Under the pieces are notes generated by a model. That model made no database searches. It saw only the letters and a list, made by a program, of their open reading frames with translations, and was not told the origin of the DNA. Positions 6,308 through 63,212 of a DNA stretch of 64,000 nt are shown here, one piece after another. Both the position numbers and the translations under genes were made by a program. The stretch's first letter is position 1. Every line of letters begins with the position of its first letter. The stretch comes from Longitalea luteola (lineage in GTDB: Bacteria > Bacteroidota > Bacteroidia > Chitinophagales > Chitinophagaceae): contig NZ_JAFIQX010000011.1 of assembly GCF_017356035.1 (NCBI RefSeq), positions 62,001-126,000 of the forward strand, in the 5' to 3' direction.

Positions 6308-7183
6308 ATGAAAATTTTAGATGGTCAGCTTGTATCACAGGCAACAAAGGATGAATTGAAAATAAAGGTGGCTCAACTGGTAGCCGAAGGTAAAAAAGTG
6401 CCTCACCTGGCCGCTGTGCTGGTAGGTAACAATGGCGCCAGTGAAACCTATGTAGGTTCAAAAGTGAGAACCTGCGAAGAGATCGGTTTTCATTCTACCC
6501 TGATTCGCCTCGAGGACACCATCAGCGAGTTCAAACTGCTGGAAACTATCGAAGAGTTGAATATAGATCCTGATGTGGATGGTATCCTGGTACAGTTGCC
6601 TTTGCCCAAACATATTTCTGATGAAAAAGTGATCAACGCCATTCATCCTTCAAAAGATGTTGACGGTTTTCATCCCGTAAGCGTAGGAAGAATGGTGCAA
6701 TCCCTTCCCACCTTTATACCTGCTACACCGCATGGCATTATGCTTATGCTGGAACATTACAAGATCAACACCAAGGGCATGCATGCGGTAGTGATCGGCC
6801 GCAGCAATATTGTGGGCCGCCCCATGAGCATTTTGCTGAGCGCTAACAGCAACCCCGGCAATTGCACCGTCACTATTTGCCATTCCCATACAAAGAACCT
6901 AAGAGAAATTTGCCTGCAGGCAGATATTATTGTAGCCGCCTTAGGCCGGCCTGAGTTTGTGAAGGCCGATATGGTTAAAGACGGCGCCATTGTGATCGAT
7001 GTAGGTATCACCCGCGTTCCAGATGCTACGAAAAAAAGAGGATATTCATTAAAAGGAGATGTAGAGTTTGATACCGTTGCCCCGAAATGCTCGTGGATCA
7101 CGCCGGTGCCGGGTGGCGTAGGCCCCATGACCATTGCCGCATTGATGAAGAACACGTACAATGCGTGTTTGCTTAAACACTAA
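6308..7183 (+). CDS. folD: Bifunctional methylenetetrahydrofolate dehydrogenase / methenyltetrahydrofolate cyclohydrolase
   Basis: 291 residues, normal for FolD. It interconverts 5,10-methylene-THF, methenyl-THF and 10-formyl-THF with NADP(H) in the cytosol, supplying one-carbon units for purine and fMet synthesis. Visible signatures: [14 protein letters not shown] with the catalytic Tyr48 and Lys52 (equivalent to E. coli Tyr50/Lys54), VQLPLPKHI, the Rossmann-type GRSNIVGRP segment, and the C-terminal [14 protein letters not shown] signature. It is the first gene of a plus-strand run and is monocistronic or loosely linked to queE, about 177 bases downstream beyond a repeat-bearing spacer. Confidence 0.98.
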
Positions 7184-7189
7184 AACCAA

Positions 7190-7316
7190 TGTGCTGATGT
7201 AATAATTTGCTGATGTGCTAATGGTCTTCTTCGGCATGCATGACAACGATCTGCCTGCCCAAAAAATGCTCCATTAGCTAATTAGCCAATTATCACATTA
7301 GCAAATTATCACATTG
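7190..7316. repeat. Degenerate inverted repeat, ATTAGCACATT family
   Basis: The folD-queE spacer has AATTTGCTGATGTGCTAATG near 7204-7223 and, facing it, CCATTAGC..., TTATCACATTAGCAAATT near 7271-7308. The two arms can pair imperfectly. Related words recur at 34502-34540 and 61868-61908 in this window. Confidence 0.6.
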
Positions 7317-7360
7317 AAGGCAACATATTCGCCCATACACTGTTATTATCAAGAATATTG

Positions 7361-7987
7361 ATGTTAATGACTAAAGCTTCTACAGATACGATCCAATATC
7401 CTGTAATGGAGTCGTTTTATACGCTCCAGGGGGAAGGTTACCACCAGGGAAAAGCCGCATATTTCATCCGCCTCGGTGGCTGCGATGTAGGTTGTGTGTG
7501 GTGCGATGTAAAAGAAAGCTGGGATGCGTCCAAACATCCGCTGCTAACCATCGATGAAATGGTAACCGCTGCCAGCGCATTTCCCGGCCGTTTGGCCGTG
7601 ATCACGGGAGGCGAACCATTGATGCATAATCTCGATGCCCTTACTACAGCTTTGCATGAAGCGGGTTTTCAAACCAATATCGAAACTTCCGGCGCCTGGC
7701 CGGTAAGCGGTTCCTGGGACTGGATCTGCCTGTCGCCCAAAAAATTCAAAGCGCCTTTACCGGAAGTACTGCCACTGGCCAATGAACTGAAAGTGGTAAT
7801 TTACAATAAAAGCGATTTTGATTGGGCCGAAAAATATGCAGCACAGGTTTCGCCCACCTGCAAACTCTTCCTGCAACCGGAATGGAGTAAATCAGCCATT
7901 GTAACGCCACTGATCATCGAATATATTAAAGACAATCCGCGTTGGGAATTCTCCCTGCAGCTGCACAAATACATTCATGTGCCGTAA
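7361..7987 (+). CDS. queE: 7-carboxy-7-deazaguanine synthase (radical SAM)
   Basis: About 208 residues; start taken at ATG 7361, though ATG 7367 is equally possible. QueE converts 6-carboxy-tetrahydropterin to 7-carboxy-7-deazaguanine, the radical-SAM step of queuosine/preQ0 synthesis. The sequence shows the 4Fe-4S cysteine motif CDVGCVWC (C-x3-C-x2-C, about residues 41-48), the N-terminal ESFYTLQGEG typical of QueE, and ITGGEPLMH for SAM binding. The reduced length compared with other radical SAM enzymes is normal for the QueE family. Other queuosine genes are not adjacent; a QueF-like gene lies at 61328. Confidence 0.95.
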   Translation: MLMTKASTDTIQYPVMESFYTLQGEGYHQGKAAYFIRLGGCDVGCVWCDVKESWDASKHPLLTIDEMVTAASAFPGRLAVITGGEPLMHNLDALTTALHEAGFQTNIETSGAWPVSGSWDWICLSPKKFKAPLPEVLPLANELKVVIYNKSDFDWAEKYAAQVSPTCKLFLQPEWSKSAIVTPLIIEYIKDNPRWEFSLQLHKYIHVP

Positions 7988-59625: not shown

Positions 59626-59656
59626 TTTGACAATTTAAATCCCGTCATTATCTTTG
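59626..59656 (+). promoter_or_regulatory. Promoter of the SAM-riboswitch operon
   Basis: TTTG (59626-59629), a 19-base spacer, TATCTTTG (59649-59656): an almost ideal Bacteroidota promoter. Transcription should start near 59662, about 15 bases before the riboswitch. Confidence 0.75.
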
Positions 59657-59675
59657 CACCAGTTCTTTACACATC

Positions 59676-59794
59676 GCTTATCAAGAAAGGCTGAGGGAAA
59701 TGGCCCGATGAAGCCTTGACAACCTGCACGCTGGTTTTAACAGAACCGCTGTAAGGTGCCAACTCCATCCCGCGGAAGGCGGGACAGATAAGTC
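59676..59794 (+). ncRNA. SAM-I (S-box) riboswitch aptamer
   Basis: The sequence follows the SAM-I consensus closely: CTTATCAAGAAAGGCTGAGG at the 5' side, GGCCCGATGAAGCC, GACAACC, AAGGTGCCAACTCC, and GACAGATAAG at the 3' side. P1 forms between CTTATC (59677-59682) and GATAAG (59787-59792). Family knowledge: SAM binding stabilises P1 and switches off methionine genes. Here it precedes a cystathionine gamma-synthase-like gene, a matching target. Confidence 0.95.
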
Positions 59795-59866
59795 AGATAT
59801 AAGCTTCTACAATACTGAACTGCAACATATTGAAAGCTCTTCTGACTTACGGAAGAGCTTTTTTTA
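59790..59866 (+). promoter_or_regulatory. Expression platform: antiterminator and terminator
   Basis: Terminator: AAAGCTCTTC (59833-59842) with GAAGAGCTTT (59852-59861), then T-run to 59865. Antiterminator: AAGTCAGA (59790-59797) is the exact complement of TCTGACTT (59841-59848) and uses part of the P1 3' strand, so SAM-bound P1 would free the terminator. Confidence 0.8.
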
Positions 59867-61327: not shown

Positions 61328-61780
61328 ATGTCTGAACAAATAACCCGGGAACCTGTTAAAACATACAAGGATATTGACCGCAGTATCCTGAAACCTATTC
61401 CTAACCCCACTGACCAGGCCTATGAGATCAAGATCAAAATACCTGAGTTCACTTTTCTGGGCGTTAAGGAACAACCTGATTTTGCAGTTATTTACTGCAC
61501 TTTCTATCCCGGTAAGAAAATAATAGAATTGAAATCATTGAAACATTATGTCTTCCAGCTGCGCAATATCGTAGTCTCCTACGAAAGACTGATCAACATC
61601 ATTTATGATGACCTGGTGGCTGTATATGAACCTGCCCGTTTACGGTTGGTCATGGTCTGCAATCCGCGCGGTGGCATCAGTTCTAAACTTACCATCGATT
61701 CTGACTGGAAGATCCGTGGTGGTAAAGAACAGTTCAACGACTGGCAGATCGTGGAAGACGAATGGTCGGTAGAAATGTAA
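61328..61780 (+). CDS. QueF-family (preQ0 reductase-like) protein lacking catalytic Cys and His
   Basis: 150 residues. The T-fold and signature of NADPH-dependent preQ0 reductase QueF are clear: EFTFLGVKEQPDFAVIYCT, IIELKSLKHYVFQLRN (cf. VESKSLKLYLFSFRN), then INIIYDDL and CNPRGGIS. Active QueF reads EFTSLCPxTGQPDFA, with the Cys forming the thioimide. Here that position is Gly45 and one residue is missing, so the nucleophile is gone; Asp51 of QPDFA stays. The FHE-type His is replaced by Tyr85 (SYERLIN), with Glu86 kept. Cys57 is nearby but in another position. It lies 46 bases after the metB-like gene in a riboswitch-controlled unit. It could bind a deazaguanine without reducing it, or do other chemistry. 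Confidence 0.9.
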   Translation: MSEQITREPVKTYKDIDRSILKPIPNPTDQAYEIKIKIPEFTFLGVKEQPDFAVIYCTFYPGKKIIELKSLKHYVFQLRNIVVSYERLINIIYDDLVAVYEPARLRLVMVCNPRGGISSKLTIDSDWKIRGGKEQFNDWQIVEDEWSVEM

Positions 61781-61908
61781 GAACGCTGAACGCCCAACGC
61801 GAAACGCTGAACGCTGAACGCTAAATGCGAAACACAGCACCAGGCATGTCAGTAAGACTTAGCTTTCAATTATCACATTATCGAATTATTAAATTAGCAA
61901 ATTATCAT
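61781..61908. repeat. AACGCTGAACGC array and ATTATCACATT words between QueF-like and hom genes
   Basis: gaacgctgaacgcccaacgc and gaaacgctgaacgctgaacg (61781-61820) repeat a degenerate 7-9 base word; 61868-61908 repeats tatcacattatcgaattatt-type words. The hom gene's frame stays open through the array, which can mislead start calling. Confidence 0.7.
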
Positions 61909-63165
61909 ATGGACGCACACAAGTCATTAACAATCGGTTTATTTGGTTTTGGTGTAGTAGGTGAAGGTTTGTACAAAGTATTACAACAAACGCCTTCACT
62001 GAAAGCCACTATAAAAAAGGTCTGTATAAAGAACCCCGGGAAAAAACGCAATGCGCCAGATGCATTGTTTACGACCAATAAAGATGAGTTGCTCAATGAT
62101 CCTGAGATCAATGTGATCGTAGAAGTGATCAACGAATCAGAACCTGCCTTCGAGATCGTTTCTACCGCATTAAAGAATGGTAAAGACGTGGTGAGCGCCA
62201 GCAAAAAAATGATTGCCGAGCATTTACCCGAATTACTGGGTTTACAAAAACTCACCGAGCGCTCCTTCCTGTATGAGTCTGCTGCCTGCGCCTCCATCCC
62301 GGTTATCCGCAATCTGGAAGAATACTACGACAACGATCTTTTACATTCCATCAAAGCCATTGTTAACGGCTCCACCAACTTCATTCTTACCAAAATGTTT
62401 GAAGACAAGCTGGATTTTCAACAGGCGCTGTTACTGGCGCAGCAGCTGGGTTTTGCTGAAAGCGACCCCACACTCGATGTGGAAGGCTTTGATGCTGCCA
62501 ATAAATGGAATTTCCTGCTCACCCATGCTTATGGTATTGTAGTGGCGCCAGATGCCGTGGTATTTAACGGCATTCAAAACATTCATCAAAACGACGCCCT
62601 GGTTGCTACTGAAAAGCATTACGATATTAAACTGGTTGCCCAGGCAAAGAAACTCGAGAATGGAAAAGTAGCTGCTTTTGTACTGCCGCAGTTCGTTAAA
62701 CACGATGATCACCTGGCTTTTGTAAAGAATGAATACAATGGTGTTGTGATTGAAAGTGGTTTCGCCGATAAACAATTCTTTTATGGCAAAGGCGCCGGCA
62801 GCTTCCCTACCGCTTCTGCCGTTTTAAGCGACCTTTCTGCCCTGCGTTACCAATATAAATATGAGTACAAGAAATTGTACCACCACACTCCCAACGAGCT
62901 CACCAATGATTTTTATGTGCGGGTGTACGTGAGCTTCGACGACTGGAAATACATTCCAAAAGAGAAATTCGAATGGATCGAAGAGTGGCATGCCGAAAGC
63001 GATCGTAAATACCTGGTTGGTGTGCTTCACTTTAATGAGCTGGCTCAAAACAGCTGGTGGCGTGAGAACAAAACTTCACTGATCCTTTCTCCTGAAGCCG
63101 TTATCGAAGATGTGGAAGTGCGTAAACTGAAAAAGAAAAGCCTCGAACTGGCCGGCATCATTTAA
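61909..63165 (+). CDS. hom: Homoserine dehydrogenase
   Basis: 418 residues from ATG 61909 (MDAHKSLTIGLFGFGVVGEG); the upstream 28 in-frame codons are repeat sequence. NAD(P)-binding GLFGFGVVGEGLYKVLQ, catalytic-domain blocks VVSASKKMIAEHLPELL, LHSIKAIVNGSTNFILTKM and ESDPTLDVEGFDAANKW. It reduces aspartate semialdehyde to homoserine, the branch point to methionine and threonine. The last ~100 residues form a C-terminal extension that may be regulatory. It is the third gene after the SAM-I riboswitch, so methionine supply may control it, and a terminator follows. Confidence 0.96.
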   Translation: MDAHKSLTIGLFGFGVVGEGLYKVLQQTPSLKATIKKVCIKNPGKKRNAPDALFTTNKDELLNDPEINVIVEVINESEPAFEIVSTALKNGKDVVSASKKMIAEHLPELLGLQKLTERSFLYESAACASIPVIRNLEEYYDNDLLHSIKAIVNGSTNFILTKMFEDKLDFQQALLLAQQLGFAESDPTLDVEGFDAANKWNFLLTHAYGIVVAPDAVVFNGIQNIHQNDALVATEKHYDIKLVAQAKKLENGKVAAFVLPQFVKHDDHLAFVKNEYNGVVIESGFADKQFFYGKGAGSFPTASAVLSDLSALRYQYKYEYKKLYHHTPNELTNDFYVRVYVSFDDWKYIPKEKFEWIEEWHAESDRKYLVGVLHFNELAQNSWWRENKTSLILSPEAVIEDVEVRKLKKKSLELAGII

Positions 63166-63178
63166 TTAAGTAAAAACC

Positions 63179-63212
63179 AAGAGGATGTTTTCATTGAGGC
63201 ATCCTCTTTTGT
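63179..63212 (+). terminator. Terminator of the met/hom unit
   Basis: AAGAGGATG (63179-63187) pairs perfectly with CATCCTCTT (63200-63208), followed by T-rich sequence. Confidence 0.85.

Follow-up and report, generated by a model that had tools for sequence, protein, structure and literature searches.

What does a protein of the QueF family do once it has lost the cysteine on which QueF chemistry depends, and when its gene lies among methionine genes? The question is raised by a locus of Longitalea luteola, within a stretch of 64,000 nucleotides (contig NZ_JAFIQX010000011.1, positions 62,001 to 126,000, forward strand) that was analysed as a whole and is here called the window. QueF is described in parts of one study as reducing a nitrile via a Cys thioimide with NADPH, an Asp serving as general acid (PMC5485725). 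For the window protein an earlier note on this DNA, made from the sequence alone, had considered three options: a sensor of preQ0 or a related ligand, an enzyme catalysing another step, or a T-fold enzyme unrelated to queuosine. We use the label QFL for the Cys-less QueF-like clade that includes this protein.

The gene and its operon

The window protein (150 aa, encoded by an open reading frame; Table 1) scores above the cut-offs of both family models (TIGR03139, 91.9 bits, cut-off 86.9; PF14489, 66.6 bits, cut-off 27.3), and its closest PDB structures are those of Bacillus subtilis QueF (4fgc, 4f8b and 5udg; sequence match E 2.6e-17). By the QFL gene, its nearest named relatives are Longitalea arenae and Niastella yeongjuensis. 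The arrangement that the earlier note had described, with the gene lying between metB-like and hom in an operon led by a SAM-I riboswitch, is borne out. The hairpin behind the aptamer would probably act as the off-switch under SAM binding, and the one behind hom probably marks the end of the operon. The promoter-like site is weak, since the region holds five such sites against 6.2 expected. The 25 NCBIfam matches shown for the metB-like protein all fall below their cut-offs, and an in-frame ATG at 61909 is a likelier start for hom than the called one. By eye, the interval between QFL and hom (61781–61830, +) holds a short degenerate direct repeat, gaacgctgaacgc..., and the called hom start lies inside the repeat.

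Table 1. Features of the QFL operon, in window coordinates
Feature	Coordinates	Strand	Basis
Promoter-like site (TTGACA, 16 nt, TATCTT, then TG)	59627..59654	+	Consensus scan only, weak
SAM-I (S-box) riboswitch aptamer, operon leader	59675..59794	+	Rfam RF00162, 73.9 bits, E 2e-15
Intrinsic-terminator-like hairpin 3' of the aptamer	59832..59862	+	13-pair stem and T tail
metB-like, cystathionine gamma-synthase/lyase-family PLP enzyme, 401 aa	60076..61281	+	PF01053, 522 bits
QFL, T-fold protein of the QueF family without the Cys (150 aa), putatively a 5,10-methylene-THF reductase	61328..61780	+	
Gly45 codon, position of the QueF thioimide-forming Cys	61460..61462	+	Alignment
Asp51 codon, QueF general acid/base Asp; kept in 41/41 aligned QFLs	61478..61480	+	Alignment
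ELKSLK, residues 67-72, presumed NADPH-type motif of QueF	61526..61543	+	Alignment
Tyr85-Glu86	61580..61585	+	Alignment
DSDW, residues 124-127, C-terminal motif diagnostic of the QFL clade	61697..61708	+	80/80 loci
hom, homoserine dehydrogenase	61825..63165	+	PF00742, PF03447; NF004976 over its cut-off
Terminator-like hairpin 3' of hom	63179..63208	+	

Active-site residues

To compare QFL with ordinary QueF we used 28 Bacteroidota loci (L116–L143), the best-scoring among the loci returned, from 208 matching genomes. In the alignment the QueF segment EFTSLCPKTGQPDFA corresponds to EFTFLG-VKEQPDFA in QFL, so that the replacement of the thioimide Cys by Gly45, together with a one-residue deletion, is seen directly, as the earlier note had claimed. 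Gly occupies this position in all 41 aligned QFLs and Cys in 27 of the 28 ordinary QueFs, and the Cys motif is absent from all 80 QFL loci (described below). Without this Cys, QFL is barred from the known route of nitrile reduction. Cys57, which the earlier note had named as a possible back-up residue, does not hold up in this role, being Leu or Met in five of the seven sequences compared.

Other parts of the QueF active site are kept. The signatures QPDFA and RGGI and an E.KS.K-type motif are present, and Asp51 and Glu86 are retained in 41/41 aligned QFLs, in agreement with what had been noted for the window protein. Within the E-x-K-S-x-K motif, which we take to be the NADPH motif of QueF, Glu67 and Lys72 are found in all 41 sequences, Lys69 in 37 (Arg in 4) and Ser70 in 38 (Ala in 3). 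The position of Glu86 is presumably the ligand anchor of QueF and T-fold enzymes, which holds a 2-amino-4-oxo-pyrimidine ring. Tyr85 does replace the His of FHE, but its earlier reading as a sign of lost QueF function fails, as 27 of the 28 ordinary QueFs lack this His (Tyr in 17, Phe in 10, His in 1). E-L-K-S is likewise common among these 28, and the position of DSDW differs in them. Most Cys-bearing Bacteroidota QueFs are also without that His, which is therefore no defining feature of QueF, and neither Tyr85 nor ELKS is an argument against QueF function; to judge from the residues, it is Gly45 that would speak against it.

QFL as a conserved clade

The 80 QFL loci are the best 80 of 83 confirmed, all from named genomes and collected with two peptide patterns. 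TFLGV..QPDFA, NPRGGI and DSDW occur in every one of them and SYER in 79, although the presence of Gly45 in 80/80 is partly built in, because one of the search patterns, GV[KHE][EG]QPDF, contains the Gly. A profile search free of this bias, run over 395 genomes of the phylum, gave two matches above 285 bits, while the other 208 matching genomes scored at most 78 bits; across the profile searches QFLs score 245–302 bits against no more than 78 for ordinary QueFs. The 41 aligned QFLs, a diverse set, share 50 invariant columns, among them Asp51 and Glu86, and in their C-terminal region DSDW..RGG is invariant and a DW nearly so. All 41 match TIGR03139 at E <= 1e-10, the model's cut-off itself being shown for the window member alone. 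A tree built by a quick method from 51 QFLs and 16 of the 28 ordinary QueFs splits the QFLs from the rest at a single branch (SH-aLRT 99), and the stem that leads to them is long; five end branches were flagged for their length, and one warning concerned long branches meeting each other.

The predicted structure agrees with this placement. An AlphaFold2 monomer model (pLDDT 82.3) gave 4fgc as its best Foldseek match (E 7.7e-10), and the top five matches bear out the fold shared with unimodular QueF. B. subtilis QueF matched best; the QueF of Vibrio, GTP cyclohydrolase I and the archaeal QueF-Like protein came after it. The similarity to a subunit of ciliate complex I (E 0.57) disappeared once a profile was searched. 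QFL is a member of the QueF family by descent, probably either derived from QueF or its sister, and lacks QueF's defining catalytic residue; for this reason we do not call it a QueF.

Is the Cys-less protein simply a decaying or non-catalytic one, carried along in methionine operons? The loss of the catalytic Cys and the presence of MetF in the host (see below) would be in keeping with this. Between the window QFL and that of locus L034, however, 61 of 66 nucleotide differences fall at third codon positions and only 2 amino acids differ; the comparison with L035 gives 40 nucleotide and 2 amino acid differences, and that with five further relatives 60–75 and 3–8 respectively. So few amino acid changes beside so many nucleotide changes, relative to seven close relatives, indicate that QFL is under strong purifying selection. 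The earlier note had left room for a strain-specific loss of the Cys. The absence is clade-wide (80/80 loci, partly built in as explained above), which together with the purifying selection rules out strain-specific decay. With the 50 columns that stay invariant across the 41 diverse QFLs and the recurrent and varied methionine contexts also against it, a passenger without catalytic function is hardly credible.

QFL and the queuosine pathway

A preQ0-binding sensor, or a queuosine enzyme employing another residue, would be in keeping with the matches to QueF fold and family models and with the QueE homologue in the window. The genome of the window organism, which is 99.98% complete, has no match to QueC and, in answer to a check that the earlier note had suggested, no second QueF over the cut-off; no source of preQ0 was therefore found in it. 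A weak second match to TIGR03139 (a 203-aa frame, 26.9 bits) is read as FolE-like. Among 72 genomes searched for QueC, 50 of them QFL carriers, 42 of the 50 carriers had no match at E <= 1e-10, and within the organism's own family none was found in 27 of the 30 genomes searched. Six QFL genomes have a strong QueC (G452, G456, G470, G477, G489 and G495); each also has a second QueF, which bears the Cys in 6/6 and in three of them (G452, G456, G477) is separated from queC by no more than about 2 kb. Weaker QueC matches were found in G006 and G007 (113 and 46 bits), and in G006 the QFL is the only QueF-family match at E <= 1e-8, which makes it one case against a clean split.

A queuosine role for QFL was rejected on two grounds, the absence of QueC and the second, Cys-bearing QueFs. 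With Cys57 also not conserved, we regard the proposal of a preQ0 sensor or an alternative queuosine enzyme as very improbable, and the idea that this operon places deazapurine chemistry under methionine control does not survive. Of the three options first considered, a T-fold enzyme unrelated to queuosine fits the evidence, and QFL very probably belongs to methionine and folate metabolism instead.

The QueE homologue at 7361 is indeed present, its best NCBIfam match being a QueE model (126 bits, below the cut-off of 200); it follows folD in the window (6308–7984, +), and QueC has no match in this genome. Another, separate QueF that has lost the Cys was seen in genome G148 (L142/L148/L170), where EFTTLGPVNRQPDFA has Gly at the Cys position with no deletion. 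At E <= 1e-8 it is all that PF14489 matches in G148, and no methionine neighbour was recognised beside it. The Cys is retained in L146 and L147, from the same family as G148.

Methionine and folate neighbours

The common methionine synthases take their methyl group from 5-methyl-THF, whose usual source is MetF. We identified the neighbours of QFL as long ORFs around all 80 loci, by simple greedy calling followed by clustering. A metH ORF lies within 3 kb of QFL in 17 of the 80 loci. In 14 loci the two are co-directional, and in 13 of these QFL sits between the halves of a split metH (L064, L068, L072, L082, L084, L085, L086, L089, L093, L096, L099, L104 and L105), with an N-half of about 330 aa and a C-half of about 890 aa where not cut. 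The gap from QFL to the upstream half is below 20 bases, or the two overlap, in 9/13; L084 has an extra 171-aa ORF between the halves besides QFL. In L058 just 10 bases separate QFL from the metH ORF ahead of it, and in L066, L071 and L112, the last from the gammaproteobacterial isolate Pleionea mediterranea, it is divergent from a whole metH. Further contexts include metE downstream of QFL (L076), metH1 and gcvT at distances of up to about 2.3 kb, with gcvH up to about 6.3 kb away (L167), and an upstream gene for a 285-aa pterin-binding-domain protein weakly similar to MetH (25%; L080/L169). As in the window, hom and metB-like genes are neighbours of QFL in 21/80 loci each, all among L034–L056.

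The methionine synthase of the L080/L169 genome (G470) is apparently in pieces on three contigs, namely the pterin-binding-domain protein, a homocysteine-methyltransferase-like and a B12-domain-like piece.

Beyond the window, Rfam places a SAM-I riboswitch in six of 17 scanned QFL loci (L045, L058, L064, L066, L068 and L071) and no SAM riboswitch in the other 11. At metF and metH of the window organism's own genome none was found at Rfam gathering scores. The riboswitches of L058, L064, L068, L066 and L071 precede metH or split metH; these loci come from Bacteroidota MAGs and one labelled Halanaerobiales. Among the neighbours annotated, none with a methionine role was recognised in the Marinilabiliaceae, Chitinophaga and several Flavobacteriales, and those that could be identified there are unrelated: by Pfam an RNA methyltransferase (L087), lepA (L073), a cold-shock protein (L100) and ferritin (L091), and by eye riboflavin synthase (neighbour cluster 36).

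MetF and MetH in genomes with QFL

Fifty QFL genomes were picked from the 80 loci for taxonomic spread and searched for MetF (PF02219); 27 have no match at E <= 0.001. The 23 with a match include Niastella, Chitinophaga, eight of nine Marinilabiliaceae and Marinoscillum, and are mostly isolates. Of the MetF-less genomes 25 are labelled MAG, the exceptions being P. mediterranea and Marinilabiliaceae bacterium ANBcel2, against four of the MetF-bearing ones, among which L057 and L063 are labelled uncultured; incompleteness and lineage are thus confounded with MetF absence in this comparison. Plain incompleteness does not explain the missing MetF, since 24 of the 25 MAGs have MetH matches. Of all 27 genomes without MetF, 26 gave a MetH match, which implies that they need methyl-THF. 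The MetH search covered 48 entries, 47 with QFL and one without (G516), and gave matches in 46 of the 47, or 41 of 42 different genomes, as five were entered twice (G040/G462, G519/G459, G055/G486, G552/G480 and G505/G481). The matches extend into what we take, from the presumed place of the folate domain within MetH, to be the folate-domain region, except in G470, whose pieces miss it.

The association can also be followed within the order of the window organism, where 17 of 396 genomes have QFL and 363 have MetF (at E <= 1e-10). MetF is absent from 9/17 genomes with QFL, the other 8 having both, and from 24/379 without QFL, the other 355 having MetF only (Fisher one-sided p 9.8e-7, relatedness ignored). 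When only genomes with a completeness of 90% or more and a contamination of 5% or less are counted, the four classes, in the same order, number 5, 8, 15 and 322, so that MetF is absent from 5/13 and 15/337 respectively (p 3.5e-4). These tests treat related genomes as independent, and five of the nine QFL genomes without MetF are of one genus. The 8 genomes with both genes are all from the organism's own family; outside it, none of the 9 QFL genomes has MetF. On the QFL tree, which is not a species tree, the MetF state requires at least nine changes.

Two simple rules fail. QFL does not always replace MetF, which is present in the window's own genome, and the rule that MetH implies MetF or QFL failed in part, as MetH is found in 13 of the 24 order genomes with neither gene (6 of 15 when only complete genomes are counted; the 24 were derived by hand from the MetF listing and agree with its totals). 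In comparison, all nine MetF-less order genomes with QFL have MetH (9/9 versus 13/24, p 0.013). Two members of the organism's own family (G027 and G775, genus g19) have MetH and no QFL; MetF gives a weak partial match of 20 bits in G027 and none at E <= 1e-10 in G775, and both perhaps carry a strongly diverged MetF.

Gene order varies among relatives. In G516, which has no QFL, metF adjoins metH1-metH2, whereas in G505, a member of that family, no metF accompanies metH1-metH2 in the 13 kb covered and QFL lies on a different contig. In Carboxylicivirga (G452) metF comes next after metH, and in its relative ANBcel2 (G477) the gene behind metH codes for an aldehyde dehydrogenase. In Marinoscillum (L086) metH1, QFL, metH2 and metF stand in a row, metF 4 bases behind metH2, and this state with both QFL and metF may precede the loss of MetF.

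The Marinoscillum operon could also be taken to mean that QFL assists methionine synthase without being the reductase itself, acting in folate channelling, in the assembly of split MetH or in the reductive reactivation of cobalamin. The tight placement of QFL between metH halves would suit such a role, and the invariant DSDW..RGG and nearly invariant C-terminal DW could form a contact surface. An accessory would, however, leave unexplained why MetF is absent from 27/50 QFL genomes and from the nine order genomes outside the own family; QFL also accompanies unsplit MetH (L066, L071, L112), and a role in B12 chemistry clashes with the metE neighbour in L076. On balance we consider an accessory function unlikely.

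Proposed function and mechanism

The simplest joint reading of pocket, gene context and MetF absence is that QFL is a methylene-THF reductase. More precisely, we propose, with a probability of about 0.6, that QFL is a flavin-free, NADPH-dependent 5,10-methylene-THF reductase that is not homologous to MetF and serves as its substitute or partner. Every chemical step, from the substrate and cofactor to the hydride chemistry, is one that we infer. Pterin shares the 2-amino-4-oxo-pyrimidine ring that is bound in QueF. QFL would no longer act on preQ0; it would reduce 5,10-methylene-tetrahydrofolate, probably in its 5-iminium form, to 5-methyl-THF, with a hydride passing directly from NADPH and no flavin taking part, and the product would supply methionine synthase with its methyl donor. 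The Asp, the Glu and the NADPH motif kept from QueF would serve the pterin substrate, and the Cys would be dispensable, as methylene-THF should need no covalent catalysis when its iminium form can take the hydride directly. In lineages without MetF, QFL would be the sole source of methyl-THF, and in the window organism, where MetF is retained, its role would be that of another isozyme, regulated by the SAM riboswitch. Counting against the proposal are the 23 of 50 QFL genomes with MetF, the further cases of the window's own genome and its family, metF behind metH1-QFL-metH2 in Marinoscillum, and the lineages with no recognised methionine neighbour.

The retained anchor Glu and NADPH motif, GTP cyclohydrolase I among the structural matches and the folate-gene neighbours would also suit the reduction of another pterin or folate, such as dihydrofolate, dihydropteridine or dihydromonapterin, with only an indirect benefit to methionine synthesis. 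Against this stand the recognised neighbours, which are users of methyl-THF (metH, metE and the MetH-like pterin-binding domain), and the correlation, which is with the absence of MetF, so that a different pterin substrate appears decidedly unlikely.

Comparison with known systems

With unimodular QueF, the NADPH-dependent 7-cyano-7-deazaguanine reductase (TIGR03139, PF14489; 4f8b, 4fgc, 5udg), QFL is homologous in sequence and predicted fold. It differs in the missing thioimide Cys, a loop shorter by one residue and a C-terminal motif of its own, DSDW, and further in its position on a separate long-branch clade, its methionine context in many loci and the absence of QueC from most of the hosts searched. 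T-fold enzymes have a pocket of the pterin/purine type. GTP cyclohydrolase I (FolE) and other enzymes of this kind share the fold class with QFL and have a different chemistry. The archaeal QueF-Like archaeosine synthase (5jyx, 5k0p), itself a structural match, is like QFL a QueF-derived T-fold with a changed reaction; unlike the bacterial QFL, which is without the Cys, it is described in parts of one study as keeping it and forming a thioimide with preQ0-tRNA (PMC5485725).

The reaction proposed for QFL is that of MetF, the flavin-dependent methylene-THF reductase. MetF is a TIM barrel. QFL is not homologous to it by sequence, the QueF families being its only Pfam matches at E <= 1 and PF02219 not being found at this threshold, and in contrast to MetF it would be flavin-free. 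Closer in mechanism is the flavin-independent mycobacterial MTHFR (MSMEG_6649), for which direct hydride transfer from NAD(P)H, as here proposed for QFL, has been put forward in one account (PMC13001107). In passages of that account and of another, these flavin-free mycobacterial MTHFRs are described as distant relatives of MetF (PMC13001107, PMC7857596), whereas QFL is a homologue of QueF, and given this ancestry homology of QFL to MSMEG_6649/6596 is unlikely. A search of titles and abstract openings, with most subscription journals and bioRxiv outside its range, returned no link of QueF to MTHFR, metF or metH.

Implications for methyl-THF supply

A 2021 survey calls MetF, in one passage, the only known path to 5-methyl-THF, and also counts the flavin-free mycobacterial relatives (PMC7857596). 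Taken as a whole, the clade now annotated as preQ1 synthase would constitute a new methylene-THF reductase that has lost the Cys, is flavin-free and NADPH-dependent, often lies in an operon with split metH, stands partly under SAM-riboswitch control, and has permitted MetF to be lost repeatedly, both in Bacteroidota and in at least one gammaproteobacterium; for this extended claim we would put the chances somewhat above even. If it is true, a third, unrelated enzyme would fill the pathway gap in bacteria that lack MetF and keep MetH, the automatic annotation 'preQ(1) synthase' would have to be corrected for a clade that matches TIGR03139, and the loss of its covalent residue would have turned a nitrile reductase into one that acts on folate.
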